From positions 186,001 through 250,000 of the forward strand of contig NZ_JARTWB010000001.1 of NCBI RefSeq assembly GCF_031450785.1: DNA of 64,000 nucleotides, written 5' to 3'. A program made the position numbers and the translations under genes. This stretch comes from Caballeronia sp. LZ062. GTDB taxonomy: Bacteria > Pseudomonadota > Gammaproteobacteria > Burkholderiales > Burkholderiaceae. Of the stretch, positions 12,267 through 49,983 are shown one piece after another. Below the pieces are notes generated by a model, which saw only the letters and a program-made list of their open reading frames with translations, was not told where the DNA came from and made no database searches. Position 1 is the first letter of the stretch. Every line of letters starts with the position of its first letter.

Positions 12267-12782
12267 GTGGACTTCGAGCACGATCTCCTCGCCCATCTCC
12301 CGCAGTTGCGCCGCTATGCGCGCGCACTGACGGGTGATCGCGCCTGGGCCGACGATCTCGTGCAGGACGCCACCGAACGCGCGCTCAACCGGGCGAGCAT
12401 GTTCCGCGCGGGCACGAACCTGCGCGCGTGGCTCTTCACGATCATGCGCAACATTTATATCGATCAATGGCGGGGACGCCGCGATATTGCCGTCGACGAT
12501 GAAACCGCGCCTTGGCGGCAGATGGCCGCGCCGCGCGGCGAAGTGGACGGGCTCGTGCTGCGCGACGTGCAGCGCGCGCTGTACTGTCTGCCGGTCGAGC
12601 AGCGCGAAGTGATGCTGCTCGTGTGCGTCGAAGAGATGAGTTATCTGGAAGCGTCACAGGTTTTGAACGTGCCGGCGGGCACCGTCATGTCGCGCCTCTC
12701 GCGGGCGCGCGAACATATGCGCGTGCTGTTGGGCGAAGAGCAGGGGCGTCGCGCGCCGCTGAAAGTGGTGAGCCGCACATGA
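12267..12782 (+). CDS. ECF-family RNA polymerase sigma factor
   Basis: A 171-aa sigma-70-related ECF factor. Region 2 (about 5-75) has LVQDATERALNRASMFRAGT and LRAWLFTIMRNIYIDQWR. Region 4 (about 105-160) has LPVEQREVMLLVCVEEMSYL and VPAGTVMSRLSRAREHMR. It starts with GTG. The stop overlaps the next gene's ATG as ATGA, so sigma and anti-sigma are translationally coupled. It resembles the sigma factor at 49465-49983 in sequence and organisation. The activating signal is unknown. Confidence 0.92.
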   Translation: MDFEHDLLAHLPQLRRYARALTGDRAWADDLVQDATERALNRASMFRAGTNLRAWLFTIMRNIYIDQWRGRRDIAVDDETAPWRQMAAPRGEVDGLVLRDVQRALYCLPVEQREVMLLVCVEEMSYLEASQVLNVPAGTVMSRLSRAREHMRVLLGEEQGRRAPLKVVSRT

Positions 12783-26194: not shown

Positions 26195-28870
26195 ATGCAC
26201 ATGATGACTGCGTCCACGGAAATCAGCCGCTCGCAAGTTCGTAACCGCATCGTGAAGGACCTTTGGCAGGCGATCTGGACATTTCGCCTGCAGACGCTCG
26301 GTGCCGTTGCGCTGATGATTGCCTCGCGCCTTGCGGTGGTATCCGTTCCCTTGATGCTGAAACACGTCATTGATGAGTTCAGCAAGCCGACCGCCAACGC
26401 GGTGTTCCCGGTGTTCGTGATTCTGACGTACGTGCTGATGCGCTATCTCGGCGACGTGCTCAACGAAGCACGCGATGTGTTATTCAGCGTCGTGACGCAA
26501 CGTACTGTCGCATCGTTTACTGCGCGCACGTTCTCTCACTTGCACGGCATGGGCGCGCGTTTTCATGCGCAGCGTGAAACCGGCGGCGTGGTGCGCGACG
26601 TGCAAAAAGGCGCGGACGGTATCGGCTTTCTGCTCGGCGTCGCGATCTTCACCATCGTTCCGACGTTGATCGAGATAGGCACGGTCGTCGCCATCATGGT
26701 GAGTCAGTACGCGAAGACGTTCATGATTGCCATCGGCGCGACGTTCGTCTGTTATGCGGTCTATACGTTGATCTTCACGCGCTATCGCATGCGCTTTCAG
26801 CGCGCGGTGAACCGGCTCGAAGCGCAGTCGGACAGCCGCCTCGTCGACAGCCTTCTGAACTACGAAACAGTGAAGCTCTTCGCGAGCGAAGACGTGGAAC
26901 GCGGTCGCCTGTCTTCGGTGCTCGACAAATGGGTCGATGCCCGCACCGCGAACCAGCGTGCGTTGACGATTCTGCATGTCGGGCAGAGCACGGTGATCGC
27001 CGTCGGCATCGCGGCCGTGATGCTGCTGGCGGCGCAAAACGTGGTGGCCGGCACAATGAGCGTGGGCGATCTCGTGTTGGTGAACGCGTATATCGTGCAG
27101 GTATGTGCGCCGCTCAACACGCTCGGCTTCGTATTCCGCGAGACGAACGACGCAATCGTGAACGTCGAACGCATGTTCGAGATTCTGTTGTCGCGCGGCC
27201 GTCGCGGTGAAGATGTGGACGAGGCAGATGCCAAGCCGCTCGTGGTGTCCGCAGGGGAAATCGAGTTCGAGCACGTGGACTTCGGCTACGATCCCGCGCG
27301 CCAGATTCTGCGTGATATCGACTTTCGCGCGCATCCGGGAAAGAAGCTCGCGGTTGTCGGCGGCAGCGGCTCAGGCAAGTCCACGCTGATGAAGCTGCTC
27401 TTCAGGCTCTATTCGCCGACGGCAGGGGTCGTCACCATCGACGGTCAAGACATCCGGCAGGTCACGCAGAAGAGCCTGCGCGAAGCCATCGGCATCGTGC
27501 CGCAGGATACGGTGCTCTTCAACGATACGATCGCCTATAACATCGCCTATGGCCGGCCGTCCGCCACGCGCGCCGATGTCGTGCGCGCGGCGCGTGCCGC
27601 GCAACTGGACAGCTTCATCGAACGCTTGCCCGATCATTACGACACGCGCGTCGGCGAACGCGGCGTGCGGCTCTCGGGCGGCGAGCGGCAACGCATCGCA
27701 ATCGCGCGCGCCATTTTGAAAGACCCGCGCATCATCGTATTCGATGAAGCGACGTCCGCGCTCGATACGCGCTCCGAGCGTGCGATTCAGAGCGAACTCG
27801 ACCGGCTTGCGCAAGGCCGCACGTCGATTGTGATCGCGCACCGGCTATCCACTGTCGTCAACGCCGACTGGATTCTCGTCATGGAGCACGGGCGCATTGT
27901 CGAGCAAGGTCAGCATGCAGAGCTTATCGAACGCGGCGGCGTATATGCGCGTATGTGGGCGCTGCAATCGCAACAGGGCGAGCTTGCGCAAGTGCAGCGC
28001 AAGGTGTCGGCGCAACCGGTGGGACTCGGCGCCTTGATCGCCGGTGTGGTCGATGGCTTGCACGAAGAGATCGTCGAACACGGCGTGCAGCTTTACACGA
28101 TGATGCCCGATGACGATCTGCGCGTGACCGGCGACCCCGGCGTGTTGCAACTGGTGATAGCGGACCTGTGCCGCACCGAGATACGCGCGGCCGAGCGCGG
28201 CGAGCGCGTGGAACTGCGCGTCGAGCGTGAAGCGAATCAGGTTCGCGTGTGCGTGCTGGGCCGTCGCGCGCAGCCCGCGCCGCTTTCGCAGGAACAGGCG
28301 CGCCGCCTCGAACAGGCGCTCGCCGAAACGGGTGGCACGTTCACCGTGGGCTACGTCGACGGCCACCTCGCCTATGTGGCGATGATGCCGCTGCGCCCCG
28401 TGGTCGATACCGATAGCCTCGCGGGTCTCGCGGAGCCGAACGCAAACGTTACCGGCAATCTGGAGGGCCTCTGCGTCATGGTGCTGGACGATCAGGAAGC
28501 TGCCCGCGAGGCGCTCGGTGCGGTGCTGGAGATGTCGGGGGCGGGCGTGCGACTGGCGGCGTCGGGCAAGGAGGCGCTCGAATGGCTCGCGCAAGCACCC
28601 ACGCAGGAATGGCCCGATGCGCTGCTGTGCGACATCGTGCTCGGCGAAGAAGACGGCTATCAGGTCTTGCGCCGCGTACGCGAATTGGAAGCGAGCCGCC
28701 GCGTGTCGCTCGGCGAGCGCATGCCCGCGATTGCGTTGACGGGCCATACGCAGACCGAGGATCGCCTGCGCGCTCAGATGGCAGGCTTTCAGATGCATAT
28801 GACCAAGCCCGTTCCCGCAGAGCGTTTGATCGCGGCAATCCGGCAGGTCGCCGTGCCGACGGAAGCATGA
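26195..28870 (+). CDS. ABC exporter fused to degenerate HATPase-like and receiver domains
   Basis: An 891-aa three-part protein. Residues about 25-320 are an ABC type-1 six-helix membrane domain of the Atm1/HMT type (SLLNYETVKLFASEDVERG). Residues about 355-590 are the nucleotide-binding domain, with Walker A GGSGSGKST (about 389), signature LSGGERQRIAIARAIL (about 493), Walker B IIVFDEATSALD (about 512) and a downstream HRLS. Residues about 600-745 resemble a histidine-kinase ATPase domain (TGDPGVLQLVIADL near 645) but lack the N-box Asn, the DxGxG box and any H-box. Residues about 758-885 are a receiver domain with Asp765/Asp766, phospho-acceptor Asp813 and Lys871. Start: GGAAGC before the ATG. 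An ABC pump fused to two-component modules is very unusual; role unknown. It overlaps nothing and is followed after 9 bp by a ParB-like gene. Confidence 0.85.
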   Translation: MHMMTASTEISRSQVRNRIVKDLWQAIWTFRLQTLGAVALMIASRLAVVSVPLMLKHVIDEFSKPTANAVFPVFVILTYVLMRYLGDVLNEARDVLFSVVTQRTVASFTARTFSHLHGMGARFHAQRETGGVVRDVQKGADGIGFLLGVAIFTIVPTLIEIGTVVAIMVSQYAKTFMIAIGATFVCYAVYTLIFTRYRMRFQRAVNRLEAQSDSRLVDSLLNYETVKLFASEDVERGRLSSVLDKWVDARTANQRALTILHVGQSTVIAVGIAAVMLLAAQNVVAGTMSVGDLVLVNAYIVQVCAPLNTLGFVFRETNDAIVNVERMFEILLSRGRRGEDVDEADAKPLVVSAGEIEFEHVDFGYDPARQILRDIDFRAHPGKKLAVVGGSGSGKSTLMKLLFRLYSPTAGVVTIDGQDIRQVTQKSLREAIGIVPQDTVLFNDTIAYNIAYGRPSATRADVVRAARAAQLDSFIERLPDHYDTRVGERGVRLSGGERQRIAIARAILKDPRIIVFDEATSALDTRSERAIQSELDRLAQGRTSIVIAHRLSTVVNADWILVMEHGRIVEQGQHAELIERGGVYARMWALQSQQGELAQVQRKVSAQPVGLGALIAGVVDGLHEEIVEHGVQLYTMMPDDDLRVTGDPGVLQLVIADLCRTEIRAAERGERVELRVEREANQVRVCVLGRRAQPAPLSQEQARRLEQALAETGGTFTVGYVDGHLAYVAMMPLRPVVDTDSLAGLAEPNANVTGNLEGLCVMVLDDQEAAREALGAVLEMSGAGVRLAASGKEALEWLAQAPTQEWPDALLCDIVLGEEDGYQVLRRVRELEASRRVSLGERMPAIALTGHTQTEDRLRAQMAGFQMHMTKPVPAERLIAAIRQVAVPTEA

Positions 28871-28879
28871 GGAGATGCT

Positions 28880-29471
28880 ATGGACACCGAATCATCGGCT
28901 CGCATCGACGAACTCAAGCCGACGCAAGGTTCAATCGGAATGGAGCACGTGCGCGAGAAGATGCATCTGACGGCCGCCACGCCCGCTCATGGACGCGCGG
29001 CGTTCTTGCGCGACCACGCGCTGCGTCTGGTGCGCGGACCGGGCGGCACGCTGCATGTGATCGACCATCATCATTGGGCGCGTGCCTGGCACGAACTGGG
29101 CATCGACGTGGTGCCGGTGGTTATCGCGTGCGACTTCAGCGACCGCAGTCACAATGCCTTTATCGCTGCGCTGCGTGAGCGCGGCTGGCTTCACGCGGTC
29201 GATGCAGAGGGCCGCGAGACGTCGGTCGACGAACTGCCGCCATCCATTGCCGCAATACCCGACGACCCTTATCTGAGTCTCGCGGCTTTCGTGCGGATGG
29301 CGGGCGTTTATAGAGACCCGCCGGGAGCCAACGCGAAGTATGCCTGGGCCGACTATCTGCGCGAGCGCGTGCAGGGAGATCTCACCTCCATTGCCGGCTT
29401 CGCGAAGGCGCTCGCGCAGGCAGTGGCCGCTTCGCGTGAAGACGAAGCGCGCGCACTGCCCGGTTACAACA

Positions 29472-29482
<11 letters not shown>
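28880..29482 (+). CDS. ParB-like protein (ParBc_2 / putative ParB-like nuclease family)
   Basis: A 200-aa protein of the PF08857 type. Family landmarks: [17 protein letters not shown] near residue 12, [20 protein letters not shown] near 49, [20 protein letters not shown] near 83, [20 protein letters not shown] near 127 and [11 protein letters not shown] near 152. It lacks the helix-turn-helix of chromosomal ParB, so it is not a partition protein. The GxxxxIDxHH signature suggests a CTPase/nuclease-like ParB fold whose activity is not established. AGGAG precedes its ATG and the gene lies 9 bp after the ABC fusion gene, so the two probably form an operon. Its 3' end overlaps the convergent UDP-xylose synthase gene by 11 bp. 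Confidence 0.85.
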
Positions 29483-30455
<973 letters not shown>

Positions 30456-30504
30456 GTCGGTTCCTTTTTGTGGTGATTGGGTCGCGCTTGATCGTCGCGC
30501 TTGA

Positions 30505-31464
30505 TCAACTGCACACGTGGCGCAACGTTGCTTCCCATTCGGCGGCGAAGCGGTCTATGTGGAAACGTTCAAGCGCGAGACGGCGAGCGCCTTCACCCAG
30601 ACGGCGCGCTTCGGCGGGATCGCGCAGCAGCTGTTGCATGACGTCGACGAGCGCGTTCGTATCGGTATGGATGAAGCCGCTCTCGCCATTGCGGATCACG
30701 GTGGCAAGCTCCGTCGTCGCAAGACCGATGACGGGCATACCGATCGTCATGGCTTCGACGATGGCGAGGCCCAGACTCGTCCAGCGAATCGGATTGAAGA
30801 AGAAACGGTATTGCGCGGAAAACGCGGCCAGGTCCAGATTGCCGATCTCTCCCAGACCGCCCGCCGATTCCGCGTCCATGCCGACGAGATCGAGCGGCAC
30901 GCGCTGCGCGGCATCCGCGAAAACATCGCTGCCGAGCCTGCGGCCGCGCTGCCGCAGATGATTGATAACGACGATGCCGCGTTCCTTTTCGCCGGTATAA
31001 CGCACGCCTTCCGGCACGACCACGCCATGTTCGATCACACGCGTCGGCGTCTCGCCGCTGTCCCACATCAGCCGATTGAAGTGCGTCACATGCACGAGCA
31101 AGGTGTCGCGATCCTGCACCCAATGGCGCTGTTCGAACGGATTCTCCTGCGGCGGATCATGTTCGATATAGACGCGCGGCAAGCGCCGCTGCGCATCCGA
31201 GAGCAGGTTGATGCGATCGTCGTCCCAGTGCGTGCGATGCTGAAATAGAACGACGTCGAATTCGTGCGAAGCCACTTCGTCGGCCGGCACTTCGTGAACG
31301 TTGTCACCCCACGGCAGCACGCCCACTTTGCCCGCATAGCCGGGCGGATGACCGGGCTTCGTCACGAGGTAGAAGTCGTGCTTCGCCTGAGTCAGGTAGT
31401 ACAGATAGTTGCCGTGTACGTGCCACGTGAGCACGCGCAGGCGTCGTTGATTAGCAGTGGGCAT
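30505..31464 (-). CDS. glycosyltransferase family 4-like
   Basis: A 319-aa GT-B fold glycosyltransferase. The N-terminal acceptor half opens with [20 protein letters not shown]. The C-terminal donor half has [20 protein letters not shown] near residue 230 and [20 protein letters not shown] near 250; its E-x7-E-type nucleotide-sugar site is recognisable. The protein is shorter than many GT4 enzymes (350-420 aa). Its start overlaps the end of the upstream GT9 gene by 14 bp, so it is in the same operon. Donor and acceptor are unknown; a role in the same heptose/xylose-containing glycan is inferred. Confidence 0.82.
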
Positions 31465-32515
31465 CGGTTTCCAGTTTTTCTACAGGCAATTGGAGTCGTG
31501 CGACATCGAGCACTTGCGCGACACTCACATTGAGCGCGCATGGATGACCATACGGACACTCGCGAAACGAACACGGGCGGCAGGGCGGATAGTCGGCCAG
31601 CACGCGGTGCCGTTCGTGATCGAGCGGTGCCCAGCGTTGCGTGTCACTGCCCGATGCGATGACGACGCTTCTCGTGCGCATCGCAGCGGCCACGTGCGAA
31701 AGCCCCGTGTCATTGCAGACGATAAGACGTGCCCGCGCAACGAGCGCAGCCAGCGAGCCGAGCGATGTCTTGCCGGTCAGGTCGATTGCATCGAGGCCGG
31801 GTGTGCTTGCAATGCTCGCGGTAATCGCAGCTTCGCCTGCGCTACCGGTCAACGCCACCTGCCAGCCATCGCTCGCAAGTGCCGTGGCGACTTGCGCGAA
31901 GCGTTCGGCGGGCCAGCGTCGCGAAGGCAATTGCGCACCCGCATGCACCAGCACGAGCCGCGCGGTGTCGAGACCATATTGCGCGATCAATTCATCGCAT
32001 TCGCGCGTATCTTGTGGCGTGAGCGGAATCTCCAGTTGCGTGTCATGCGCATCCAGGCCGAGTGCCGCCATTAGCGCGTTGTAGCGCTCGACTTCCTGCA
32101 ACGCGTCGGGCCACGGAATGAACACACCGGCGCGCGGCGATTCATCCGGCTTCAGGAATCCCGCACTAAGCCGTGCGTGCATCTCTTCGACGATATCGTT
32201 CGCCACGCCGCCGCTGCCGTGCAGCTGAATCGCGAGATCGAAGCGGCGCGCGCGCATCGCTTCAAAAAAGGCCGGTAGTTTCGCGTCCGTTTCCTCTTGC
32301 TCCGGAAATCCCACTGCGCCGGGAAACAAAATCAGCTCATCCACGAGATGCGAATAACGTTCGACGAAAGTTTGCGCCCACGGCAAGCCGATCAGCGCAA
32401 TGCGTGCGCGAGGATAAGCGCGGCGCAATGCCCGCAGCGCCGGCACACAACAGAGCATGTCGCCGAGTTGCAGCGCCCGGAAGATCGCAATGCGCTCGAC
32501 GTTTTCCGGCTTCAT
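31451..32515 (-). CDS. glycosyltransferase family 9 (heptosyltransferase type)
   Basis: A 354-aa GT-B enzyme of the ADP-heptose transferase family. The opening IAIFRALQLGDMLCCVPALR is the GDxxxxxPAL acceptor motif. The donor half has LVLVHAGAQLPSRRWPAERF near residue 190 and NDTGLSHVAAAMRTRSV near 265. Near the C-terminus is a Cys cluster C-x2-C-x4-C-x5-C (PPCRPCSFRECPYGHPC). The start at 32515 is chosen because it forms an ATGA overlap with the stop of the GT2 gene. An upstream in-frame extension to 32674 is inside that gene and unlikely. It should transfer heptose or a similar sugar. Confidence 0.88.
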   Translation of the reverse strand: MKPENVERIAIFRALQLGDMLCCVPALRALRRAYPRARIALIGLPWAQTFVERYSHLVDELILFPGAVGFPEQEETDAKLPAFFEAMRARRFDLAIQLHGSGGVANDIVEEMHARLSAGFLKPDESPRAGVFIPWPDALQEVERYNALMAALGLDAHDTQLEIPLTPQDTRECDELIAQYGLDTARLVLVHAGAQLPSRRWPAERFAQVATALASDGWQVALTGSAGEAAITASIASTPGLDAIDLTGKTSLGSLAALVARARLIVCNDTGLSHVAAAMRTRSVVIASGSDTQRWAPLDHERHRVLADYPPCRPCSFRECPYGHPCALNVSVAQVLDVARLQLPVEKLETDAHC

Positions 32516-33567
32516 ATGAACATCACCCGGAACTTCACGGCGCCGTAGATTCTCCAGTACACCGAAAGAAATGGTATCCATAGCGATGTCCACGCCATTT
32601 CCAGTACATGCGACGGCGTGAGCGAAGTCGACTTCAGGCGCTTGAAGCAGAACCATGCGGTCATGCCGAGCCACGCGACGAGGCAGACGCCCGCGAGCGT
32701 GTTATTGCCCTTGGCAAGCGCGAGCACGGCGACCAGTAGGGCTGCGATGATCGCGTAATAAAGCAGCGGCGGCAGGCTTCGAATCCGTGTCTTGAAGAGC
32801 GAGCGATGCTTCTTGTACAGCAGCGCGTCGAACTGGCTCTTCTTCTGTTGCGACAAGCTCACGCCCCAGCGCGCAGGCCGCACGGGATGCAAGACCATTG
32901 CATCGTGTGACCTCACGATGCGCGCGCCGATGCGCATCAATTCGAATTGCAGGTCCGAGTCTTCGCGCCATGCCGACGTGAAACGCGCGTCGAAGCCGCC
33001 GACGCGTGCGAGCGCCGAGCGCGTCACGAACGTGTTGGCCGTCGCGAATTCGGCGTGCGAGAGACCGGCTGCATCTTGCTCGTAGTCCGTCGGACGAGGC
33101 CCGAGCGGCACCACGATACGGCCCGATACCGCATCCGCGCCCGCTCGCAATGCGGCAACGCCTGCCGCGAGCCAGTGCGGATCGGGAATCGTGTCGTCAT
33201 CGGTGAAAGCGATCAACGCCGCGCCCGATGCGCGCCATCCCGCATTGCGTGCGCCCGCGGGGCCTTGCGTCGCGGTGACGGGCACATAGCGGATGCGCGG
33301 TCCCTGCTCGAACTCACGTGCCAGCGCTGCAACACGCGAGCGCGTCGGTTCGTCGGGACCGTCATCGCACACGATGATCTCGAAGCGCGTCTTGTCGTAG
33401 TCCTGCGCGATGATCGCGCGCAGACAGCGTTCCAGCATGTCGGGGCGGCGGTAGGTCGGCACGACGACGGACACCTCGAACGCCGCGCCCGCTGCCGCGC
33501 TGGCGTCGCGCGGCGCGGACGCGTGCTTCGCGCCGTCGTAGGGAAACGAGCCTGCAACCGAGCTCAT
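32512..33567 (-). CDS. glycosyltransferase family 2, membrane-anchored
   Basis: A 351-aa GT-A fold enzyme. The catalytic domain (about 28-250) has VSVVVPTYRRPDMLERCLRA, IIVCDDGP near residue 63, GPAGARNAGW near 102 and the DXD-type FTDDDTIPDPHW near 119. The C-terminal 100 residues hold two or three hydrophobic helices (ALLVAVLALAKG; CLVAWLGMTAWFCF), anchoring it in the inner membrane. It overlaps both neighbours by 4 bp (the carbamoyltransferase upstream and the GT9 downstream), indicating translational coupling. Its sugar is unknown. Confidence 0.88.
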   Translation of the reverse strand: MSSVAGSFPYDGAKHASAPRDASAAAGAAFEVSVVVPTYRRPDMLERCLRAIIAQDYDKTRFEIIVCDDGPDEPTRSRVAALAREFEQGPRIRYVPVTATQGPAGARNAGWRASGAALIAFTDDDTIPDPHWLAAGVAALRAGADAVSGRIVVPLGPRPTDYEQDAAGLSHAEFATANTFVTRSALARVGGFDARFTSAWREDSDLQFELMRIGARIVRSHDAMVLHPVRPARWGVSLSQQKKSQFDALLYKKHRSLFKTRIRSLPPLLYYAIIAALLVAVLALAKGNNTLAGVCLVAWLGMTAWFCFKRLKSTSLTPSHVLEMAWTSLWIPFLSVYWRIYGAVKFRVMFI

Positions 33568-35309
33568 GCACGCACTCCCGGCTTTTCAATCAGGAACGGG
33601 CCGATCACGAGCGCATCCAGCGGCGACGTCCAGAACGATTCGAGCGCATCGCGCGGCGAATTGACCATCGGCTCGCCGCGCGTATTGAACGACGTATTGA
33701 CGAGCACCGGCACGCCCGTGCGCGCCTTGAACGCCGCGAGCAAGTCGTAATAGAGCGGATGCTGCGAGCGGTTCACGGTCTGCACGCGCGCCGTGCCGTC
33801 GATATGCGTGACGGCAGGAATGCGCGACTTCATGTCCTCGCGCACATCGAACACGAAGAGCATGAACGGCGCGACGCGTGCGTCAACGAACCAGTCCGCA
33901 GCGTGTTCTTCCATCACCACGGGCGCAACAGGGCGGAAATCTTCCCGATCCTTGATTTCGTTCAGACGCGCCTGCATGGAAGGATCAATCGGCGAAGCGA
34001 GGATCGAACGCGCACCGAGCGCACGCGGCCCGAACTCCGTACGTCCCTGATACCAGCCGATCACACGATTCGATGCCAGAATTTCAGCGGTTTCGCTCGC
34101 AATGTCGTTCAGCCTGCGATACGGCGTCTTCGACCACTTGAGGAACTGCTCGATCTCGTCGTCTTCATAGCGCGGGCCAAGATACGCGTGATTCATGGCC
34201 CAGCGACGGCCCCCATCACCTTGCTTGACGCGTTCTTGATAGTCGGTCCAGAGTGCTGCGCCGAGCGCGGTACCCGCATCGCCCGCAGCGGGTTGAACCC
34301 AGATGTCTTCAAACGGGCCACGATCGCGCAAGCGCGCGTTCATTACGCAATTAAGCGCCACGCCGCCCGCCATAGCAAGATGCTTGAGACCGGTGCGTTC
34401 ATGCAGCCAGCGTGCGAGATCCAGCGCGGTTTCTTCGAGCACTACTTGCAGCGAATGCGCGATGTCGTAATGGTGCTGCGTGAGCGGACCGCCACGTTCG
34501 CGTCGCGGACCGAAGCGCTCCACCAGACGCGGCGCATCCACGGTATAGCTGCCGTCGTTGCGATACTTCACGATCTCGCGGAACTGATCGACGTACGCCG
34601 GCTTGCCGAACGAAGCGAGCGCCATGACCTTGTACTCGTCCGACGAGTGCAGGAAGCCGAGATAGTCCGTCACGGCTTCATACAGCAAGCCGAGCGAATG
34701 CGGCAGTTCCACTTGCTTGATGCGCTTGTATTCGCCATCGACGAACTGTCCGAGACTCGTCGTCACGCCTTCGCCACGGCCATCCATCGTGAGAACGGCG
34801 GTGTTCTCATACGGCGCCGCGAGAAATGCGCTTGCTTCATGCGACAGATGATGATCGACGTTATGCCATTCGAAGCGCGGTGCGCGTCCGCCGCTGGCGA
34901 ACCGCTTCTTCAGATGATGCGGCGCGCCGTCGAGCAACTGGCCGCGCGCATTCACGATATAGCTCAGGAAAAGCGGGTCCCACGGCGATTCCGACGGGTT
35001 GCCGGTCACATGTTCGGAAGGCATGAAGGGCAGGGCGATAGTCGCCTTAGTCTGCTTCGGCATGCCCGAGAAAAGCTGCGGATCGTACGAATACGCGATG
35101 TGGTCGATATCGGCGAGCTCGATGCCGGCTTCCTTGAGGCAATAGTCGATGGCATCGAAAGGCAGTTGCCACGTCGAGAAGGGCACCGGGCGCTTCGCAT
35201 GCTTTACATGCGTGAAACGCTCGTCTTCCGCCGCCGCGATCACGACGCCGTCGCGAACCAGCGCCGCTGCGCTGTCGTGATAGACCGCATTGATTCCGAG
35301 TGTGTACAT
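33564..35309 (-). CDS. O-carbamoyltransferase (NodU/CmcH/TobZ family)
   Basis: A 581-aa enzyme that transfers a carbamoyl group from carbamoyl phosphate, through carbamoyl-AMP, to a sugar or antibiotic hydroxyl. The N-terminal Kae1-like domain begins LGINAVYHDSAAALVRDG and contains metal-binding histidines in HNVDHHLSHEASAFLAAPYE near residue 149. The C-terminal YrdC-like carbamoyltransferase region has GRTEFGPRALGARSILASP near 423 and KDREDFRPVAPVV near 452. It sits within a run of glycosyltransferase genes and overlaps the next by 4 bp, so it probably decorates the glycan they make. Family members modify Nod factors, cephamycin and tobramycin. Confidence 0.92.
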   Translation of the reverse strand: MYTLGINAVYHDSAAALVRDGVVIAAAEDERFTHVKHAKRPVPFSTWQLPFDAIDYCLKEAGIELADIDHIAYSYDPQLFSGMPKQTKATIALPFMPSEHVTGNPSESPWDPLFLSYIVNARGQLLDGAPHHLKKRFASGGRAPRFEWHNVDHHLSHEASAFLAAPYENTAVLTMDGRGEGVTTSLGQFVDGEYKRIKQVELPHSLGLLYEAVTDYLGFLHSSDEYKVMALASFGKPAYVDQFREIVKYRNDGSYTVDAPRLVERFGPRRERGGPLTQHHYDIAHSLQVVLEETALDLARWLHERTGLKHLAMAGGVALNCVMNARLRDRGPFEDIWVQPAAGDAGTALGAALWTDYQERVKQGDGGRRWAMNHAYLGPRYEDDEIEQFLKWSKTPYRRLNDIASETAEILASNRVIGWYQGRTEFGPRALGARSILASPIDPSMQARLNEIKDREDFRPVAPVVMEEHAADWFVDARVAPFMLFVFDVREDMKSRIPAVTHIDGTARVQTVNRSQHPLYYDLLAAFKARTGVPVLVNTSFNTRGEPMVNSPRDALESFWTSPLDALVIGPFLIEKPGVRA

Positions 35310-35321
35310 AGGGCGCGTCTC

Positions 35322-36506
35322 TCAGGGTAGTGTCAGATGAGCGGGATGTTGTTCGGTGCGGGCATCGAGCAAGGACAGCGCGGCGTCGACGACTTCATCG
35401 ACGGTCACGCCGAGCAGACACGAGTGATGCCCTTCGGGACACACGCTGCGATAGCACCAGCGGCAAGGCACGTCGCGAAAGAGGACACGATGCGGCGTTT
35501 GCCACGGCATATGCTGCGGATTGGTGAGCGCATACAGATCGACGACCGGCGCACCGAGCGCGGACGCGATATGCACCGGACCGCTATTGTTGGAGATCAG
35601 CACACGCGTATGCGCGATCAGTGCCCCAAGCTCGCCAAGCTCGAGCGCGCCCGCAAGGTTGACGACGCGCGCATCGCCTGCGGCAACCGTCTCGCACAAT
35701 GGGGCTTCGCTCGCCGATCCGGTGACGAGAACCGGCCAGCCGGTCCGGTCTGACAACGCTCGCGCCGCCTGTGCGAAGCGCTCCGGCGGATAGCGCCGCG
35801 ATGCAGCGGTGGCGCCGGGATGCATGACAAAGAAGGGCGCGTTGAGATCGACGCCTCGTGCGTCGAGTTTGCGAGCAAGCGATGCCTCGTCTTCAGCGCG
35901 CAATGCGAAGCGCATACGTGTATCCGCGTTCGTTGCGCCGACGCTTTCGACGAGCGCAAGCTGCCGCTCGACTTCGTGCCGCGTGCCATGTTGCGGTTCA
36001 CGCTCGGCGACCCAATCCGTCAGCAGTCCGTACGGGTTTTCGCGGCAATGCGCGAGCCGTCGCGGAATCTTCGCGAGATGGCAGAACATCGCTGCCGGAA
36101 GCGGATTCTGGCTATAGACGGTGAATATGACGGCAGCATCGAACTCAAGTGATGCGAGACGTTCGCAGATCGCGATATCCGCGCTCGCATCGATGGGCTT
36201 GTCATGCTTGACCCACGGCGCGTCGTATTCGATCACGTCGTCGATATCGTCGATGAAACGCGCTGCCTGCGCACCTGAACGCGACGCAAGCAACGTGAGA
36301 TGCCGCCCCGGATACGCCGCCTTGAGCGCATGGAGCGCGGGCGTGGTCATCAGCACGTCGCCCAGATTATCGAGGCGAATGCACAAAATACGCCGTACGT
36401 CCGCGCCCCAAATGCGCTCAGGCGCAACGGCGGGCGCGCGCGCGTGCGCGTCGGCGGGCTGAATGCTGATCGGAATATCGTTGGCTCGCAACGGATCGCG
36501 CTTCAT
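35322..36506 (-). CDS. glycosyltransferase family 9 (heptosyltransferase type)
   Basis: A 394-aa GT-B enzyme, paralogous to the GT9 at 31451-32515. A short disordered N-terminus (about 1-37) precedes ILCIRLDNLGDVLMTTPALH, the GDxxxxxPAL motif. The donor half has FFVMHPGATAASRRYPPERF near residue 225 and ISNNSGPVHIASALGAPVV near 305. A C-terminal Cys cluster (PCRWCYRSVCPEGHHSC) parallels that of the other GT9. It overlaps the phosphatase gene by 4 bp and is separated from the carbamoyltransferase gene by 12 bp. Together with the GmhB-like phosphatase it argues for a heptose-containing product. Confidence 0.88.
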   Translation of the reverse strand: MKRDPLRANDIPISIQPADAHARAPAVAPERIWGADVRRILCIRLDNLGDVLMTTPALHALKAAYPGRHLTLLASRSGAQAARFIDDIDDVIEYDAPWVKHDKPIDASADIAICERLASLEFDAAVIFTVYSQNPLPAAMFCHLAKIPRRLAHCRENPYGLLTDWVAEREPQHGTRHEVERQLALVESVGATNADTRMRFALRAEDEASLARKLDARGVDLNAPFFVMHPGATAASRRYPPERFAQAARALSDRTGWPVLVTGSASEAPLCETVAAGDARVVNLAGALELGELGALIAHTRVLISNNSGPVHIASALGAPVVDLYALTNPQHMPWQTPHRVLFRDVPCRWCYRSVCPEGHHSCLLGVTVDEVVDAALSLLDARTEQHPAHLTLP

Positions 36507-37081
36507 GTCGCGATCTCCGTGTCATGCCACGCACGCTCGATGATGCGCGCGGCTTCACTCATATCTTTCGCGATCGCATCGGGTTCGCGCATGGGGCCGC
36601 GTTGCCAGAGCGTCTCGTTGCCGTTGTCGATCAACACAGCGCGACATCCGGCGCGATGCCCCGCTTCGATATCGTCGAGAATGTCGCCGACGAACCAGCT
36701 TCGCCGCAAATCGACGCCGAGCTCGCGCGCCGCGCGTTGAATCATGCCGGGTGCCGGCTTGCGGCAATCGCATACGCGGGCATACCGCGCGACCGTGCCT
36801 TGCGGATGATGCGGGCACCAGTAGACGCCCGCCAGCCGCGCGCCCGCTTCCGCAGCGAGTTCGTGCAGCTTGCGTTCGACAGGTTGAAGCGCCGCTTCAT
36901 CGAACTTGCCGAGCGCGACGCCGCTCTGATTGCTGATCACGACGATCGGCACGTCCATGCGCGCGAAGATGGCGAGTGCATCGCGTGCGCCATGCGCGAG
37001 ACGCATCTTGTCGGGATCGACGTTATAAGGCACGTCGTCGAGCAGCGTGCCGTCCTTGTCGAGAAAGACGGCGGGTTTCAT
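36503..37081 (-). CDS. HAD-IIIA phosphatase, GmhB-like heptose bisphosphatase
   Basis: A 192-aa HAD-superfamily phosphatase. The nucleophile motif DKDGTLLDD is at residues 8-16, the second motif SNQSG near 51 and the final acidic motif GDILDDIEAG near 144. A zinc loop with CPHHP near 90 and CDCRKP near 105 is characteristic of GmhB, which makes D-glycero-D-manno-heptose 1-phosphate from the 1,7-bisphosphate. No gmhA, hldE or hldD homologue lies in the window, so it either adds to the housekeeping heptose pathway or acts on another sugar phosphate. It overlaps both neighbours by 4 bp. Confidence 0.87.
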   Translation of the reverse strand: MKPAVFLDKDGTLLDDVPYNVDPDKMRLAHGARDALAIFARMDVPIVVISNQSGVALGKFDEAALQPVERKLHELAAEAGARLAGVYWCPHHPQGTVARYARVCDCRKPAPGMIQRAARELGVDLRRSWFVGDILDDIEAGHRAGCRAVLIDNGNETLWQRGPMREPDAIAKDMSEAARIIERAWHDTEIAT

Positions 37082-38367
37082 GCGGTGGCGCTGCCATATG
37101 CGGCACGCCGGCTATCGAGGTCCTGCGCCATGTCCACGCCCGCAACGCGCGCATACACGCGTTCGAGCGACTGCGCGACGCCCGACCACGTGAACATCGC
37201 GCGCGCGCGTTCGAGGCCCGCTGCGCCCATGCGTTCGGCGAGCAGCGGGTCGCGCTTGAGCACGGCAAGCGCATCGGCGAGTGCGCGCGGATCTTTTGGC
37301 GGAACCAGCAATCCAGTTTCGTTATGCGCCACCGAATAGCGAATGCCGCCCACGTCCGCGCCGATGACCGGCCGGCCGCACGCCATGGCTTCGAGCGGCG
37401 TGATGCCGAAAGGCTCGTACCACGGCGTCGTCACGAATACATCGGCTGCGTTGTAGAAGGTCTTCAGGCGTTGCCTTCCATGTCGGCCGAGAAAGTTCAC
37501 CTTGTCGGCCACGCCGCATTCGTTTGCGATGCCGCGCAAGCGGCCGATTTCCGGTGTCGCGATTTCGTTCGCTTCATCCGAATTGCCGCCGATCACATAG
37601 AGATGCGCGTCTTCTTTCAGTTCGCGATTGCACAGGCCGATGCCGCGCACCACGTTGTCGATGCCTTTGCGCGGCACCATGCGTCCCAGTTGCAGCACAA
37701 TGAAGCGGTCTTGCGGCCAGCCGAGACGTTCACGCGCTTCGGCCTTCTTCATCGGATGAAACTCGGTGCTGTCGAAGCCGCAGGGCACCAGGTCGATGCG
37801 TTCGCGCTCAGCGTGATAGAGCGACACGAGGTCCGTTTCGTCTTGCGGACACTCGGCGATGACCGAATCCGATTCACGCACGAGCGCGTCTTCGATCTCG
37901 AAGCGCTCGTCGGGAAAGCCATCGCCCGCGCCTTGATGAATGCGTCGCACGCGGCCGAGCGCATGAAACGTAGTGACGAGCGGCACGCCTAGCGCCTCCT
38001 TGATACGCATTCCAACGAGACCGGACATGAAGAAGTTCGCATGAACGACGTGATAGGGCGTCGCCTGCTTCTTGAAGTAGCCGATCATGAAGCGAGCGAA
38101 CTCGTCCATGTGCGCCAAAAGCTGTTCCTTCGGCAATTGCACGGGCGGTCCGGCCGGCACGTTGATGACGCGGATGCCGCGAATGCGTTCGAAGCGCGAG
38201 ACCAGCGGCAACAGGGAACGGTCGCGGCGCGTGAAGACATCCACTTGGTGACCGTTGCGTGCGAGCTGTCGCGCGACATGCGCGACATAGATATTCTGCC
38301 CGCCGCTATCGACGCCGCCCGCCACCGCGAGAGGCGACGCATGCTCACTGATAAGTGCGATCTTCAC
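37078..38367 (-). CDS. glycosyltransferase family 4
   Basis: A 429-aa GT-B enzyme. The N-terminal half has VKIALISEHASPLAVAGGVD and SGGQNIYVAHVARQLARNGH, shared with MshA and sucrose-phosphate-synthase-like enzymes. The donor site has LGRMVPRKGIDNVVRGI near residue 228 and PWYEPFGITPLEAMACGRPV near 315, with the E-x7-E pair. I chose the GTG at 38367 because GAGGGGG lies 7 nt before it; an in-frame ATG at 38400 has no good ribosome-binding site. About 200 bp separate it from the upstream GT2 gene, so an internal promoter is possible. The next gene overlaps by 4 bp. Confidence 0.88.
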   Translation of the reverse strand: MKIALISEHASPLAVAGGVDSGGQNIYVAHVARQLARNGHQVDVFTRRDRSLLPLVSRFERIRGIRVINVPAGPPVQLPKEQLLAHMDEFARFMIGYFKKQATPYHVVHANFFMSGLVGMRIKEALGVPLVTTFHALGRVRRIHQGAGDGFPDERFEIEDALVRESDSVIAECPQDETDLVSLYHAERERIDLVPCGFDSTEFHPMKKAEARERLGWPQDRFIVLQLGRMVPRKGIDNVVRGIGLCNRELKEDAHLYVIGGNSDEANEIATPEIGRLRGIANECGVADKVNFLGRHGRQRLKTFYNAADVFVTTPWYEPFGITPLEAMACGRPVIGADVGGIRYSVAHNETGLLVPPKDPRALADALAVLKRDPLLAERMGAAGLERARAMFTWSGVAQSLERVYARVAGVDMAQDLDSRRAAYGSATA

Positions 38368-38564
38368 GTGTAGGCCCCCTCGATTGGCGTTGTTCGACAT
38401 GGACTTCGAGTCGTTGCACGCGCGCAAAAGTTGCCGCGTCTTTCGAAGCTTGCAGGGCTCACAGCATTCGTTGTGCCACGAGCGCAAAAAATCGCAGAAT
38501 CGTTGGTTCGTTGCTGTACGAACAAAATTTCCTTAGACGCGGGGTAACCAACAGAGGCGCGGTT

Positions 38565-39533
38565 TTACACGGCGCGTGTAGCGTCTGCCCGCGTGAGCGT
38601 GGTTTCGCTGGCCTGTTGGCGCGCATGGCGGCGGTCGTCTTCGCGCACGATCGATCGCATGACCTGCACGTGCCGGCCCACTACGCGCCGATGCGACAGC
38701 GCCCAGGGCAAACCGCGCAACATCTGCATAGCATCGCGCCAGAACGTGCCTTCGCGACGCATGACGGCGAACGCCTGCATGCTCGCTTGGACGGCTTCAC
38801 GCAACGGCAGGCGCAGCCACGCGACCCACGCGGCGTTGCGCGCGAGCAGACGCCTGCGCAGTGCGCTGTCGCGTATCGGCGAGGGATGATGATGCAGCAC
38901 GAGCTCGTCGGCATAGACGAGCGCGTGGCCGTGGTCCAGCATGTCGAGCGCGAGCAGCGACTCTTCACCGCCTATGAAAAGCCGTGGCTCATAGCCGCCC
39001 ATCGTTCGATAGACGCTCGTGCGGAACACGCTCGCACCGGCCATGTAACCGACGAGCGCGGGTCCCGGCAAGCCATTCGCGCCCAGCGGACTGACGCGCA
39101 TACGTTCGCAGGTTTCGTCGGCATCGCCGTTTTCGCCGACGACCACGCGCGCACTCAGCACCGCGACACGCGGCGAGGCGTCGAGGATGTCCGCTGCGCG
39201 CGAGAGCGAACCCGGGCCCCACCACGTATCGTCGTCGCAGAACGCGACGTACTCGGTGCGCACCTTCTCCACGCCGAGGTTGCGGCCCGCCGCGCCCATA
39301 TTCGACGGCGCGACCACCAGTTCGACAAACGGGAAGGCTTGCGCGACGCGCGTGGCCGTATCGTCGGACGATGCGTTGTCGACCACCACGATGTCGATGC
39401 GATCCGGCAAGGCCGCGAGTCTTCCCAGCGTGTCGAGCACTTGATCCGCGCGGTTGTAGGTCAGCACGACCACGGTCACGCGCGCGGCCTCGTCGTGAGC
39501 AGGGCGCGCGAGGGGTTGCGGGAGCGCGCTCAT
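38565..39533 (-). CDS. glycosyltransferase family 2
   Basis: A 322-aa GT-A enzyme with VTVVVLTYNRADQVLDTLGR near residue 19, IDIVVVDNASSDDTATRV near 46, GAAGRNLGVEKV near 80 and the DXD-type FCDDDTWWGPGSL near 98. A later HHHPSPIRDSALRRR segment probably lies near the acceptor site. No transmembrane helix is evident, unlike the GT2 at 32512. Its start codon overlaps the PIG-L stop as ATGA, so the two are coupled; a GT2-deacetylase pair suggests an N-acetylated sugar is added and then deacetylated, or the reverse. Confidence 0.87.
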   Translation of the reverse strand: MSALPQPLARPAHDEAARVTVVVLTYNRADQVLDTLGRLAALPDRIDIVVVDNASSDDTATRVAQAFPFVELVVAPSNMGAAGRNLGVEKVRTEYVAFCDDDTWWGPGSLSRAADILDASPRVAVLSARVVVGENGDADETCERMRVSPLGANGLPGPALVGYMAGASVFRTSVYRTMGGYEPRLFIGGEESLLALDMLDHGHALVYADELVLHHHPSPIRDSALRRRLLARNAAWVAWLRLPLREAVQASMQAFAVMRREGTFWRDAMQMLRGLPWALSHRRVVGRHVQVMRSIVREDDRRHARQQASETTLTRADATRAV

Positions 39534-40249
39534 GCGCGCTTCTCCGCGCGTTCGAGCGTCCAGAAACGCTCTGGCAGATACACGTCGCCATATCCGTCCG
39601 GCCCGAATGCCTTGAGCTGGCTCGGATACGCGTTCACGGCGTCGCGCTTCATGGCTTCGCGGCGCTGTGCTTCGGCGGGCTCCGGCGGGCGCGGATTGAG
39701 CGGTGTCGCGTCGATGCCGCGTTCCAGCAGATCAGCGAGACGCTGCTGCAAGAGCGCACGCTTGCATCGATACAGCGCCTCTTCGTAGGCCACGCAGGGC
39801 AAATCGCGATGATGCAGCCACGCATCGCAGGCGGCTTCGTGAACGAGCGCGTGATCCGAATGAAAGAGGCCGAGCGGAATCATCAGCACGTTCGGCCGAT
39901 ACTTCGCGATGACGTCGAGAAATGCTTGCGTCAACGCGCTGCGCGTGGGCTTGTCGGCATCGTGGGCAAACGGGATGTATTGCGAATCGAGAAAGCCCAG
40001 ATGCTGCGGCGTCGCGCCGAGCAATGCAAGCGCGCGGTTGTCCTCTTCGATGCGCGCGGCCATCGCCTGCCGCGCGTCCGCGAAGCCGCATTGGGCGTCC
40101 CAATCCGTGTGGGCATCGGCGGCGGGGCATCCGGTGAACACCGTGCAGACGAGCACGTCCGGCGCGCCCGCAAGCGAGGCGCCGCAGCCGAGCACGGCGT
40201 CGTCGAGGTGAGGGGAGATCAGCAGGGTTCTGGGCGGGACGTCGATCAT
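39530..40249 (-). CDS. PIG-L/LmbE-family deacetylase
   Basis: A 239-aa zinc-dependent N-deacetylase. The metal/catalytic motif SPHLDDAVLGCG is at residues 12-23 and the second metal His in GLFHSDHALVHEAA near 137. Family members deacetylate GlcNAc-type sugars (PIG-L, MshB, BshB). The start at 40249 is chosen because it begins directly before the conserved TLLISPHLDD strand; the 41 codons upstream look like spacer. It is in the minus-strand glycan cluster, 73 bp after the outer-membrane protein gene. Confidence 0.87.
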   Translation of the reverse strand: MIDVPPRTLLISPHLDDAVLGCGASLAGAPDVLVCTVFTGCPAADAHTDWDAQCGFADARQAMAARIEEDNRALALLGATPQHLGFLDSQYIPFAHDADKPTRSALTQAFLDVIAKYRPNVLMIPLGLFHSDHALVHEAACDAWLHHRDLPCVAYEEALYRCKRALLQQRLADLLERGIDATPLNPRPPEPAEAQRREAMKRDAVNAYPSQLKAFGPDGYGDVYLPERFWTLERAEKRA

Positions 40250-40322
40250 GGAGGAGCCGTTGAGAGCGGATGACGGCTCGTCCAAACGCAAGTACCGCGC
40301 CAGCCGGTTTGCAGCGGCCCGG

Positions 40323-41366
40323 TCAGAAACGCATGCCGATGCCCGCCTCGATGATGTCCGCGTCGCGGTCATAGCGCGTCACCATGCGGTTCCACGTCGC
40401 TCGAACGAGCCAGCGATTCGTGAAACGATAACTCGCCGACAGCGAGACGAGGCCCGCGAAACGGCCGTCGCCGGTGCGGTTTTGCGGCAGATCGTCGTTC
40501 TGCGTGATCGACAGATACGGGCCCGCGCCGACGCCGAGCGTCAGCCGATCGTCGAAGAATGCGCGGGTTGCCCACAGTTGCGCGGCGACGCCGTCGCGGC
40601 GCGACTGAACGTGGCCGCCCTCGTGCAGGTACGACGCGCTGAAGTCGACATACTTCCACAGCCCGCGCCGGTATTCGATGCTTTCCGCCACGTTCGATTC
40701 CGAGTCCAGGCTGTTCAGGATCGTCGTGCCGACCATGACCGTCATTTCGTTGCCGGTGACGTTCGTGATGCGCGACGGCGCGCGCTCGCGCGGGCCACGG
40801 CCGTTTGGTGCGTCGAGCTGATAGCCGATGCCGAACAGCAGGGCCGTCGTGTCGGGACCGCCGAACGCCTGCACGCGATTGAGCTTCATCTCCGCGATCC
40901 AGCGGTTGTCGAAGTAATACGCGGCGCGCAGCGTGAAGAGGCCGCCCCAGCCGTGCGTGTTGGAATAATCGCCGCCGGCGCGGGCCTCGCTGGTATCGAA
41001 ATAGCGGTACGGCCCCGCGCCCGCCGACAGTTCCAGGCGCTTATTCCAGAGCGGAAGCCGTCCCCACAACTGCGCCGCCTGACCGTCACGGTGATGATTG
41101 GGAATATGGCCTTCGTTAATCCAGGAGAAACTCCAGGCCGCATACGGGCCGAGGCCTTCGCGGTAGCTTGCTTCCCAGGAATAGGTGTTCTGGCTGCCGC
41201 TCTTGAGCGGTCCGGCGAGAATGGAGAACTCCTGCGCCTGCGCAGTCCGCGCCGCGACGCAGAGCGCGACGCCGGCCAACGTCAGGGCAGCAAGTGTGAA
41301 ACGGTTTCGTCGGTGGAGAGTGGGCGGCACTACGAGTCGATTAGAGGTGGAGGTTCGTCGGAGCAT
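40323..41366 (-). CDS. outer-membrane beta-barrel protein with internal duplication
   Basis: A 347-aa exported protein. The signal peptide spans about residues 1-45 (FTLAALTLAGVALCVAA, then TAQAQ). The mature part is two homologous halves of about 140 residues, 47-184 and 207-347. Each has an RDG-x-AAQLW strand and a GAGPY turn (residues 93-120 and 257-284), and ends with a strand of alternating aromatic residues. The last residue is Phe, the usual BAM signal. It resembles no transporter I can name. As the first gene of the cluster it may display or export the glycan or modify it at the surface; this is inference. Confidence 0.75.
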   Translation of the reverse strand: MLRRTSTSNRLVVPPTLHRRNRFTLAALTLAGVALCVAARTAQAQEFSILAGPLKSGSQNTYSWEASYREGLGPYAAWSFSWINEGHIPNHHRDGQAAQLWGRLPLWNKRLELSAGAGPYRYFDTSEARAGGDYSNTHGWGGLFTLRAAYYFDNRWIAEMKLNRVQAFGGPDTTALLFGIGYQLDAPNGRGPRERAPSRITNVTGNEMTVMVGTTILNSLDSESNVAESIEYRRGLWKYVDFSASYLHEGGHVQSRRDGVAAQLWATRAFFDDRLTLGVGAGPYLSITQNDDLPQNRTGDGRFAGLVSLSASYRFTNRWLVRATWNRMVTRYDRDADIIEAGIGMRF

Positions 41367-48598: not shown

Positions 48599-49468
48599 TC
48601 ATCGAACAGCGGCGCCCTGCCCGTTTCTCGCGGTCAGTTGTTCATACACGTCATGCGATATGGCGAGCAATTGCGGGCGCGGGATCGCTCCCGACACTGC
48701 ATAGCCGAAGTCGCCATCGACCCAATAGAACACGTTGACAGAGCCATCCTGATAGAGCTTGAAGGCGGTCACGTCGCGGCTCACCTTGCGATGCGACACG
48801 TTCAGCGTAATGCGTTCCCCATTGGCGTCGTGATACATGAATTGGGCGATCGGGCCTTCGTCGCCGGGCAACAGGCGTCCGCCCATCAGATTGAAGCCCA
48901 CGTGCGTGAGCACCGGTGCATGCACATCGGTGCCGAGCCGGTTCGATAGCCACTTGACGAGTTCCTCTTCCTGGTCCGCGCCGACTTCGACAGGACGCGT
49001 GACCATCGGCGCATACGTCACATACGCAATCGCCGATTGACGCGCGAACGACTCGTCCTTCGTCAGGCTCGCATGTCGAAGCGAAGCGTTGTCGTCACTC
49101 GAAACAAGCATATTGCGCGCAGGCGGACTCATCATGCCGCCCACGCCGATGCCTATGCCCAGCACGAGCGCCGCCGCCATGCCCGCGTACTTCGCCCAGT
49201 TCGCGGCAGGAGCATGGCCGGCATTCACGGTCGCGGCGGGCGGCGCGTCCAGAGCCATGGTGAGGCGCTCAGGCAACGGCTCTTGCAATACGCGATCGTA
49301 GCGGTCGTGAAGCATGTTGTTGAGCGCAAAGTAATCGCTTACGCGGCTCGCGAGTGCATGATCCGTTTCCAGCAATCGGTCGATCTCGTCGCGTCGATGA
49401 TCGGCAATGACGCCATCGACATAGGCTTGGATGTCGTCTTCGCTGATGGGAGTCGTTTGTTTGTTCAT
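48599..49468 (-). CDS. membrane anti-sigma factor
   Basis: A 289-aa protein. The N-terminal cytoplasmic part (about 1-85; ISEDDIQAYVDGVIADHRRD) is followed by one TM helix near residues 93-112 (AGMAAALVLGIGIGVGGMM). The periplasmic domain is paralogous to the one at 12779-13546: VKWLSNRLG, GGRLLPGDEGPIAQFMYHD and GDFGYAVSGAIPR recur. It has no zinc HxxxCxxC motif. It overlaps the ECF sigma gene upstream by 4 bp (ATGA), so it should be its cognate anti-sigma. Confidence 0.88.
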   Translation of the reverse strand: MNKQTTPISEDDIQAYVDGVIADHRRDEIDRLLETDHALASRVSDYFALNNMLHDRYDRVLQEPLPERLTMALDAPPAATVNAGHAPAANWAKYAGMAAALVLGIGIGVGGMMSPPARNMLVSSDDNASLRHASLTKDESFARQSAIAYVTYAPMVTRPVEVGADQEEELVKWLSNRLGTDVHAPVLTHVGFNLMGGRLLPGDEGPIAQFMYHDANGERITLNVSHRKVSRDVTAFKLYQDGSVNVFYWVDGDFGYAVSGAIPRPQLLAISHDVYEQLTARNGQGAAVR

Positions 49469-49983
49469 CGCACCACCTTCAATTGCACGCCTTCCTGCTT
49501 GCCTGCCATGAGCGCACGCAGTCTTTCCCGTCCGCGCGAGAGCCGCGACATGACCGTGCCGAGCGGAATGTCAAGCGCGAGGGCGACTTCGGCATACGAC
49601 ATCTCTTCGAGACCGACGAGCAGCACCACTTGACGCTGCTCGACCGGCAGCCGTTGCAGCGCGTAGTCGAGGTCTCGCATTTCGAGCGATTGCGTGTCGC
49701 GGCTGGCGACCGCGAACTGGGTTTCGTCGAGCGGATCGTCATCGACCGACAGATGCACCGCACGCGCATCGGCGCGGCGCGCCTGATTGGCGAACACGTT
49801 GTGCATGATCGTGAATAGCCATGCACGCAGATCGGTGCCGGATTGAAACTTCTCGGTGTGCCGAAGCGCGCGTTCGAGCGTGTCCTGCACGAGATCGTCG
49901 GCCAGTTCCTGATTGCGGATCAGCGCGCGAGCATAACGACGCAAGCGCGGAAGATGATCCATCAGTTGTTCACGCACGCTCAT
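49465..49983 (-). CDS. ECF-family RNA polymerase sigma factor
   Basis: A 172-aa ECF sigma factor. Region 2 has RYARALIRNQELADDLVQDT and LRAWLFTIMHNVFANQARRA. Region 4 has LPVEQRQVVLLVGLEEMSYA and IPLGTVMSRLSRGRERLR. The ATG at 49983 follows AAGGTG; an upstream in-frame TTG at 50022 is less likely. It is closely related to the sigma factor at 12267. It overlaps the anti-sigma gene by 4 bp and lies 28 bp after another putative anti-sigma gene. Nearby catalase-like and cytochrome b561 genes suggest an oxidative signal. Confidence 0.92.
   Translation of the reverse strand: MSVREQLMDHLPRLRRYARALIRNQELADDLVQDTLERALRHTEKFQSGTDLRAWLFTIMHNVFANQARRADARAVHLSVDDDPLDETQFAVASRDTQSLEMRDLDYALQRLPVEQRQVVLLVGLEEMSYAEVALALDIPLGTVMSRLSRGRERLRALMAGKQEGVQLKVVR

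Follow-up and report, generated by a model that had tools for sequence, protein, structure and literature searches.

The window, a stretch of 64,000 nucleotides from Caballeronia sp. LZ062, contains a single open frame on the plus strand (26195-28870) whose 891-residue product joins an Atm1-like ABC exporter to a degenerate kinase ATPase domain and a receiver domain. In this protein Pfam detects ABC_membrane at residues 38-306, ABC_tran at 372-521 and Response_reg at 761-883. The parts of the gene are as follows.

26195..28870, plus strand: whole gene, Atm1-like exporter, pseudo-HATPase and receiver, 891 aa (open frame; 76 of 80 named loci have a nearly full-length ABC part in the same frame)
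26228..27190, plus strand: transmembrane domain (TMD), aa 12-332 (Pfam ABC_membrane; PDB sequence matches; AF2 helices)
26798..26800, plus strand: codon of Gln202, at the glutathione-binding Arg (AtAtm3 R328), by alignment to the pocket list in the accessible part of PMC9000953
26975..26977, plus strand: codon of His261, at the glutathione-binding Asn (AtAtm3 N387), from the same alignment and list
27260..27940, plus strand: nucleotide-binding domain (NBD), aa 356-582, with Walker A, Q-loop, LSGGE, Walker B and H-loop (Pfam ABC_tran)
27941..28009, plus strand: C-terminal NBD helix, aa 583-605, YARMWxLQ..QQGEL, the fusion junction (AF2 helix 583-605)
28010..28399, plus strand: pseudo-HATPase domain, aa 606-735, without catalytic motifs
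28400..28471, plus strand: flexible linker, aa 736-759 (pLDDT <50 at 737-751; length varies among relatives)
28472..28852, plus strand: receiver domain, aa 760-886 (Pfam Response_reg; five alternating strands and helices in AF2)
28631..28633, plus strand: codon of Asp813, predicted phospho-acceptor (Asp in all 255 distinct family sequences)

Exporter core, substrate pocket and descent

The closest PDB sequences were AtAtm3, ABCB7, CtAtm1, ScAtm1, NaAtm1 and ABCB6 (129-202 bits), followed by HlyB at 44 bits. NBD residues G394, K395, S396, Q437, S494-G496, D517, E518 and H549 were invariant in an alignment of 49 sequences that included our own. With an Atm1-type TMD and NBD and a complete set of ABC motifs, the N-terminal part is an Atm1/ABCB7-like half-exporter. 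The C-terminal NBD helix, which is conserved among relatives, marks the point just past which an unfused sister subfamily stops (~600 aa, e.g. P0279 and P0286; mostly betaproteobacterial by name).

The accessible part of PMC9000953 gives eight conserved GSSG-pocket residues (T317, R324, R328, N387, Q390, L433, G437 and R441, AtAtm3 numbering) as common to AtAtm3, NaAtm1, ScAtm1, ABCB7 and ABCB6. We mapped this list onto the fused family by alignment to the PDB sequences. Six of the eight residues are retained: T191 in 49 of 49 sequences of the smaller alignment and, among 180 fused sequences, R198 (180), Q264 (180), L307 (179), G311 (176) and R315 (180). The other two are replaced, so that the pocket does not match in full the list for glutathione-binding Atm1 orthologues. 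Gln202 was found in 176 of 180 fused sequences and His261 in 177 of 180, at positions where 14 of 14 housekeeping Atm1 proteins have Arg and Asn, respectively. Since the unfused sisters carry both residues (Gln202 in 96 of 98, His261 in 98 of 98), we rejected the idea that the pair is specific to the fusion, and the pocket change is probably older than the fusion. Judged from these residues, the cargo probably differs from that of usual Atm1 exporters; a glutathione-derived cargo is still conceivable, because six of the eight residues in the accessible list are kept. All 15 genomes checked, and our own genome too, have a second, housekeeping-type Atm1.

A scan of species genomes confirmed 103 loci; the 80 retained represent Caballeronia, Paraburkholderia, Cupriavidus, Ralstonia, Bordetella, Achromobacter, Pusillimonas, Hydrogenophaga, Pelomonas, Solimonas and other genera. 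ABC sequence lies in the same frame in 78 of the 80 and is nearly full length in 76; the partial loci have only the C-terminal ABC part (L054, L071) or no ABC (L107, L108). Searching proteins with a distant member as query yielded 310 matches, and the best 120 of these, many of them metagenomic, all have ABC and receiver Pfam domains. A profile of the linker and pseudo-ATPase domain marks at least 113 of 398 genomes from our strain's taxonomic family as fusion-type; these were picked by hand (profile start <=3, plus G259 with start 42 and 104.7 bits), include two weak rows at 68 bits (G292, G302), and are defined by linker and pseudo-ATPase domain, not by the receiver. A fusion-type match was found in 3 of 300 genomes of an order sample and in 1 of 321 of a class sample, that one being our own genome. 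Broken copies of the fusion occur in small or fragmented genomes, namely in Candidatus Burkholderia pumila (L107) and in G035, whose match is interrupted by three stops.

In a phylogeny built from the ABC part, a branch with 100/100 support separated 32 fused sequences from 14 housekeeping Atm1 proteins. The tree with the unfused sisters included has 59 rows, 12 of which form an unfused clade adjoining the outgroup, and thus supports descent of the fused exporter beside an unfused sister clade. On this tree, presence of the extension has to change five times, which is read most simply as a single gain followed by four losses, with some of the extension-less rows metagenomic and possibly truncated. 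The receiver is absent and the pseudo-ATPase domain kept in Pandoraea (P0252, P0254, P0257), Paraburkholderia (P0242), P0248 and P0258, and both are absent in P0250 and P0253; P0243 and P0245, which end past the pseudo-ATPase domain with tails that look out-of-frame or partial, were left out of the receiver losses. The pump can therefore exist without the switch. In one strain (G030) an early stop lies within the C-terminal extension.

The degenerate kinase ATPase domain and the receiver

Profile-profile comparison with hhalign identified residues 606-735 as HATPase-like (99.8%, E 8e-28; reversed control 0.7%). Pfam HATPase_c matched 11 of 25 family members scanned at E<=0.01; our own protein was not among them, had no HATPase_c match even at E<=10, and was not above the cut-off in a HATPase_c family search of its genome. 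Because structure comparison of the whole model was filled by ABC chains, the middle domain was folded alone, and the predicted structure has the ATPase (Bergerat) fold, with matches that include DivL and RetS. Both of these are regulators of other kinases.

The catalytic motifs of a histidine kinase are lost. Our own copy has Thr at the position of the N-box Asn (LCRTEI vs LLTNAV in a related kinase) and lacks G1, G2 and H-box. There is no HisKA Pfam match in the protein, and the NBD helix occupies the place of that domain. Across 247 family sequences, counted after seven without the linker motif were left out (P0133, P0158, P0212, P0215, P0234, P0237 and L048), aligned G1 and aligned G2 were each found in 0, and the N-box Asn in 54, ruling out its absence from every relative. 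A looser pattern search in 272 tails found DxGxG in nine, GxGxG in one and both together in none. The N-box position is occupied by His in 97 of the 247, and 83 of these belong to the set of 113 retrieved with the distant member L099 as query.

The receiver is intact. It scores 68.4 bits against the Pfam cut-off of 30.2 in our own protein and has the DD, D, T/S and K expected of a response regulator. Among 255 distinct sequences including our own, D765 is present in 249, D766 in 253, D813 in 255, T/S849 in 251 and K871 in 250. The 80 loci were located with two patterns, one of which includes Asp813, and this biases these counts; with the pattern-found loci left out, the counts of 189 are 186, 188, 189, 185 and 185, respectively. 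The protein searches were baited with the C-terminal part, so that sequences that have lost the receiver are under-sampled among the 255. As the receiver residues are kept while the neighbouring domain loses its catalytic motifs, a role as a mere spacer is not expected. From its residues, the tail looks able to be phosphorylated and not to phosphorylate. In several lineages the pseudo-ATPase domain persists without the receiver, which suggests a function of its own and is compatible with transmission to the motor and with docking of a partner alike.

These results bear on an earlier note made from the sequence, which had read a complete Atm1-type TMD and ATPase domain, a HATPase-like segment and a receiver in one frame. 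The first is borne out by Pfam, the PDB matches and the invariant NBD residues; the HATPase resemblance by hhalign, by Pfam in 11 of 25 relatives and by the fold; and the three-part architecture by Pfam, hhalign and fold together. Profile searches detect both domains within residues 600-891, the segment singled out for checking, and the frameshift into two proteins that would have undone the reading is not seen in relatives, 76 of 80 loci being one frame over nearly the whole length. Asp765/766, Asp813 and Lys871 are all in our sequence, and the N-box Asn, DxGxG and H-box are indeed missing from our copy, with the N-box Asn kept in 54 of 247 relatives. The view that an intact receiver needs a separate kinase gains support from the kept receiver site and the lost kinase motifs.

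The same note had called for a survey for a conserved partner kinase, and here the outcome was negative. We searched the flanks of the 80 loci with an HMM built from PAS hybrid kinases (P0084-P0121) and found matches in 14, against a rough expectation of about 16; no kinase recurred beside the fusion, and a partner next door was rejected. The expected value of 16.1 comes from another detector (63 HATPase_c matches over the cut-off in our own 5.06-Mb genome, which may include non-kinase ATPases) and assumes the same flank length at every locus. Five loci (L047, L063, L066, L074, L083) have a CheB/CheR-PAS hybrid kinase upstream. In our own genome, the hybrid kinases with the most similar receivers are C3:53481, C3:117824 and C2:1027582. 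Thus the Atm1-type exporter, the degenerate kinase ATPase domain and the intact receiver of the earlier reading stand, and the conserved adjoining partner kinase does not; the note also overlooked the altered glutathione pocket, the receiver-less lineages that retain the pseudo-ATPase domain, and the link to a glycan gene cluster.

The linked glycan cluster

Downstream of the exporter lie a ParB-like gene and, on the minus strand, a cluster of ten genes (29472-40372).

28880..29482, plus strand: ParB-like nuclease-domain protein (PF08857; Pfam 142.6 bits), 9 bases downstream of the exporter
29472..30455, minus strand: NAD-dependent sugar epimerase/decarboxylase-type enzyme (Pfam Epimerase)
30505..31464, minus strand: GT4-like glycosyltransferase (Pfam)
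31451..32515, minus strand: GT9, heptosyltransferase family (Pfam), with its cluster lying close to 64 of the 80 fusions
32512..33567, minus strand: GT2 glycosyltransferase (Pfam)
33564..35309, minus strand: carbamoyltransferase, NodU-like (Pfam)
35322..36506, minus strand: second GT9, heptosyltransferase II model (NCBIfam TIGR02195, 140.5 bits, cut-off 134.6; Pfam GT9)
36503..37081, minus strand: GmhB-like HAD phosphatase (NF006506, 148.7 bits, below the cut-off of 178; HAD-IIIA above cut-off; Pfam HAD)
37078..38487, minus strand: GT4, nearest NCBIfam model MshA (294.1 vs 462.5 bits, below cut-off; Pfam GT4)
38565..39533, minus strand: GT2 (Pfam Glycos_transf_2)
39530..40372, minus strand: PIG-L-type deacetylase (Pfam PIG-L, 49.7 bits, cut-off 28.2)

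Relatives of the ParB-like gene adjoin the fusion in L031-L034; in four Cupriavidus loci (L064, L065, L072 and L075, with L064 checked by Pfam) they are about 3.5-4 kb away from it. Elsewhere in the window, two ECF-type sigma genes (12267-12782, plus strand; 49465-49983, minus strand) match Pfam PhyR_sigma2 in region 2 with 73 and 83 bits, and each adjoins a gene that, read by eye, is likely to encode an anti-sigma factor.

We scored six cluster genes in the neighbourhoods (GT9 heptosyltransferase-type, GT2, carbamoyltransferase, GmhB-like phosphatase and two GT4-type). At least two were present within 10 kb in 65 of 80 loci, as called by a gene caller that misses some genes, such as the fusion itself in L070 and L104. 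The cluster was missing from the 10-kb flanks of the other 15, some of which sit on short contigs and others not (L048, L054, L061, L068, L073, L076, L078, L081, L084, L086, L096, L099, L105, L106 and L107). Exporter and cluster are convergent in Caballeronia, divergent in Paraburkholderia and co-directional in Bordetella, Achromobacter and Ralstonia loci, and the linkage is thus kept across three gene orders.

The carbamoyltransferase (E <= 1e-150) was found in 127 of 398 same-family genomes: in 112 of the 113 fusion-type genomes listed versus 15 of 285 others (Fisher 5e-81, a value that ignores shared ancestry). For the 103 genomes listed with both genes on one contig, the distance was <=10 kb in 99 and <=20 kb in 102, with a median of 5.3 kb. 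The co-occurrence table for same-genus genomes of the first search (n=37) was 11, 1, 5 and 20. In the 15 genomes that have the carbamoyltransferase alone, a bare exporter lies 3.5 kb off in one and a broken piece 4 kb off in another; the remaining 13 have the housekeeping-type Atm1 only, leaving 13 of 127 carbamoyltransferase genomes without such an exporter. One genome (G021; C6, C34) has two fused exporters and two carbamoyltransferases, in pairs about 10 kb and about 47 kb apart. We conclude that the link of the exporter to the glycan cluster is near-obligate.

No product of the ten-gene cluster was found in a literature search. The MshA-nearest GT4 gene (37078-38487) and the PIG-L gene (39530-40372) are reminiscent of the first two steps of mycothiol/bacillithiol synthesis. 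Given the adjoining Atm1-like exporter, it is loosely possible that the cluster makes a sugar-thiol product.

Proposed mechanism and comparison with known systems

We consider the best explanation, to which we would give an even chance, to be a homodimeric Atm1-like exporter that is gated via a phosphorylated receiver tail and receives its cargo from the adjacent cluster. The homodimer would reside in the inner membrane, its motor joined through the C-terminal NBD helix to a tail that derives from a hybrid histidine kinase and consists of its ATPase-fold domain and receiver. The dimerisation/His domain of that kinase would have been left behind in the fusion and the ATPase fold would have lost its nucleotide site, so that the tail should phosphorylate nothing. 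Instead, an unlinked hybrid kinase, encoded elsewhere, would phosphorylate Asp813. The phosphorylated receiver would then rearrange against the pseudo-ATPase domain and the helix into the NBDs, changing NBD closure and turning ATP-driven export up or down. Rather than plain glutathione conjugates, the pump would carry what the carbamoyltransferase/GT9 cluster makes, either its product or an intermediate linked to a lipid or thiol. More tentatively, the protein may be a response regulator with an ABC pump as its output, in which a phosphorelay gates, rapidly and post-translationally, the export of a carbamoylated heptose-type glycoconjugate and the dead kinase domain transmits the signal.

It is also conceivable, if rather unlikely, that the signal runs in the reverse direction, the protein being a transport-coupled sensor whose export cycle reports the cargo level to a partner hybrid kinase. 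In such a sensor the pseudo-ATPase domain would dock the kinase, as pseudokinase-like proteins do, and the receiver would serve as a docking surface or phosphate sink. Retention of the pseudo-ATPase domain where the receiver is lost and the fold matches to the kinase regulators DivL and RetS would fit this reading, and the part of the literature available to us describes transporter-kinase transceptors such as CbrA. However, the phospho-acceptor Asp is present in 255 of 255 sequences, which is stricter than docking requires, and no partner kinase is linked.

We think it similarly improbable that the protein is an ordinary Atm1-like detoxification exporter of glutathione, polysulfide or metal conjugates, stress-gated, with the glycan cluster a mere neighbour within a region of stress genes. 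Consistent with that role are the six of eight pocket residues kept by the accessible list, the HHE, Mn-catalase-like and DUF892 families (by eye) and SDR (Pfam) in some flanks, and the PhyR_sigma2 matches of the two sigma genes in the window. A mere neighbour, however, would hardly account for a carbamoyltransferase in 112 of the 113 fusion-type genomes listed or for linkage through three gene orders; Gln202 and His261 are near-fixed, and the ordinary task seems covered by the second, housekeeping-type Atm1. That the C-terminal part is a functionless, decaying leftover of the fusion is very improbable despite the loss of receiver or whole extension in several lineages and the early stop in one strain, as across many genera (255 distinct sequences) the catalytic receiver residues are near-fixed, in contrast to the drifting domain next to them.

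The dead kinase domain and the receiver fused to the motor, together with the location of the gene beside sugar-building genes, suggest that this soil bacterium has an export pump that may be switched by bacterial phosphate signalling. Two-component systems are known mainly as switches of transcription, enzymes and motility. If the preferred reading is true, a phosphorelay would act directly and quickly on a membrane pump through a receiver carried by the exporter. The family offers a natural series (no extension, pseudo-ATPase domain alone, pseudo-ATPase domain plus receiver) from which the role of each part could be learned, and it directs attention to a linked glycan cluster for which the literature search returned no product.

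The earlier note knew of no characterised example, and our search of the open-access literature likewise found no ABC exporter fused to a receiver. Atm1-like exporters themselves are known; what appears new, by that search, is one bearing a two-component input module. Compared with the Atm1/ABCB7 exporters (NaAtm1 4mrn, AtAtm3, ScAtm1), the fused exporter has Gln202 for Arg and His261 for Asn, is about 290 residues longer and forms its own clade beside housekeeping Atm1. The unfused sister subfamily is 57-62% identical and has the same Gln202 and His261, but ends right past the C-terminal helix, with neither pseudo-ATPase domain nor receiver. A source-like C-terminal ATPase-fold domain and receiver are found in the PAS hybrid histidine kinases (P0084-P0121), 31 of 38 of which, among the matches listed, span at least 90% of residues 596-891 at 32-37% identity; unlike the fused exporter, they possess HisKA, and their N, G1 and G2 boxes are intact. 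The SLC5-STAC histidine kinases CbrA and CrbS, as described in the accessible part of the literature on these transceptors, likewise carry a transporter and two-component domains on one chain. The fused exporter is not one of them, its transporter being ABC-type and its kinase motifs absent. In CbrA and CrbS, by the same source, the transporter feeds a kinase, whereas in the fused exporter an ABC pump carries a receiver predicted to accept phosphate and the kinase motifs are gone; control is expected to run in the direction opposite to that in CbrA.
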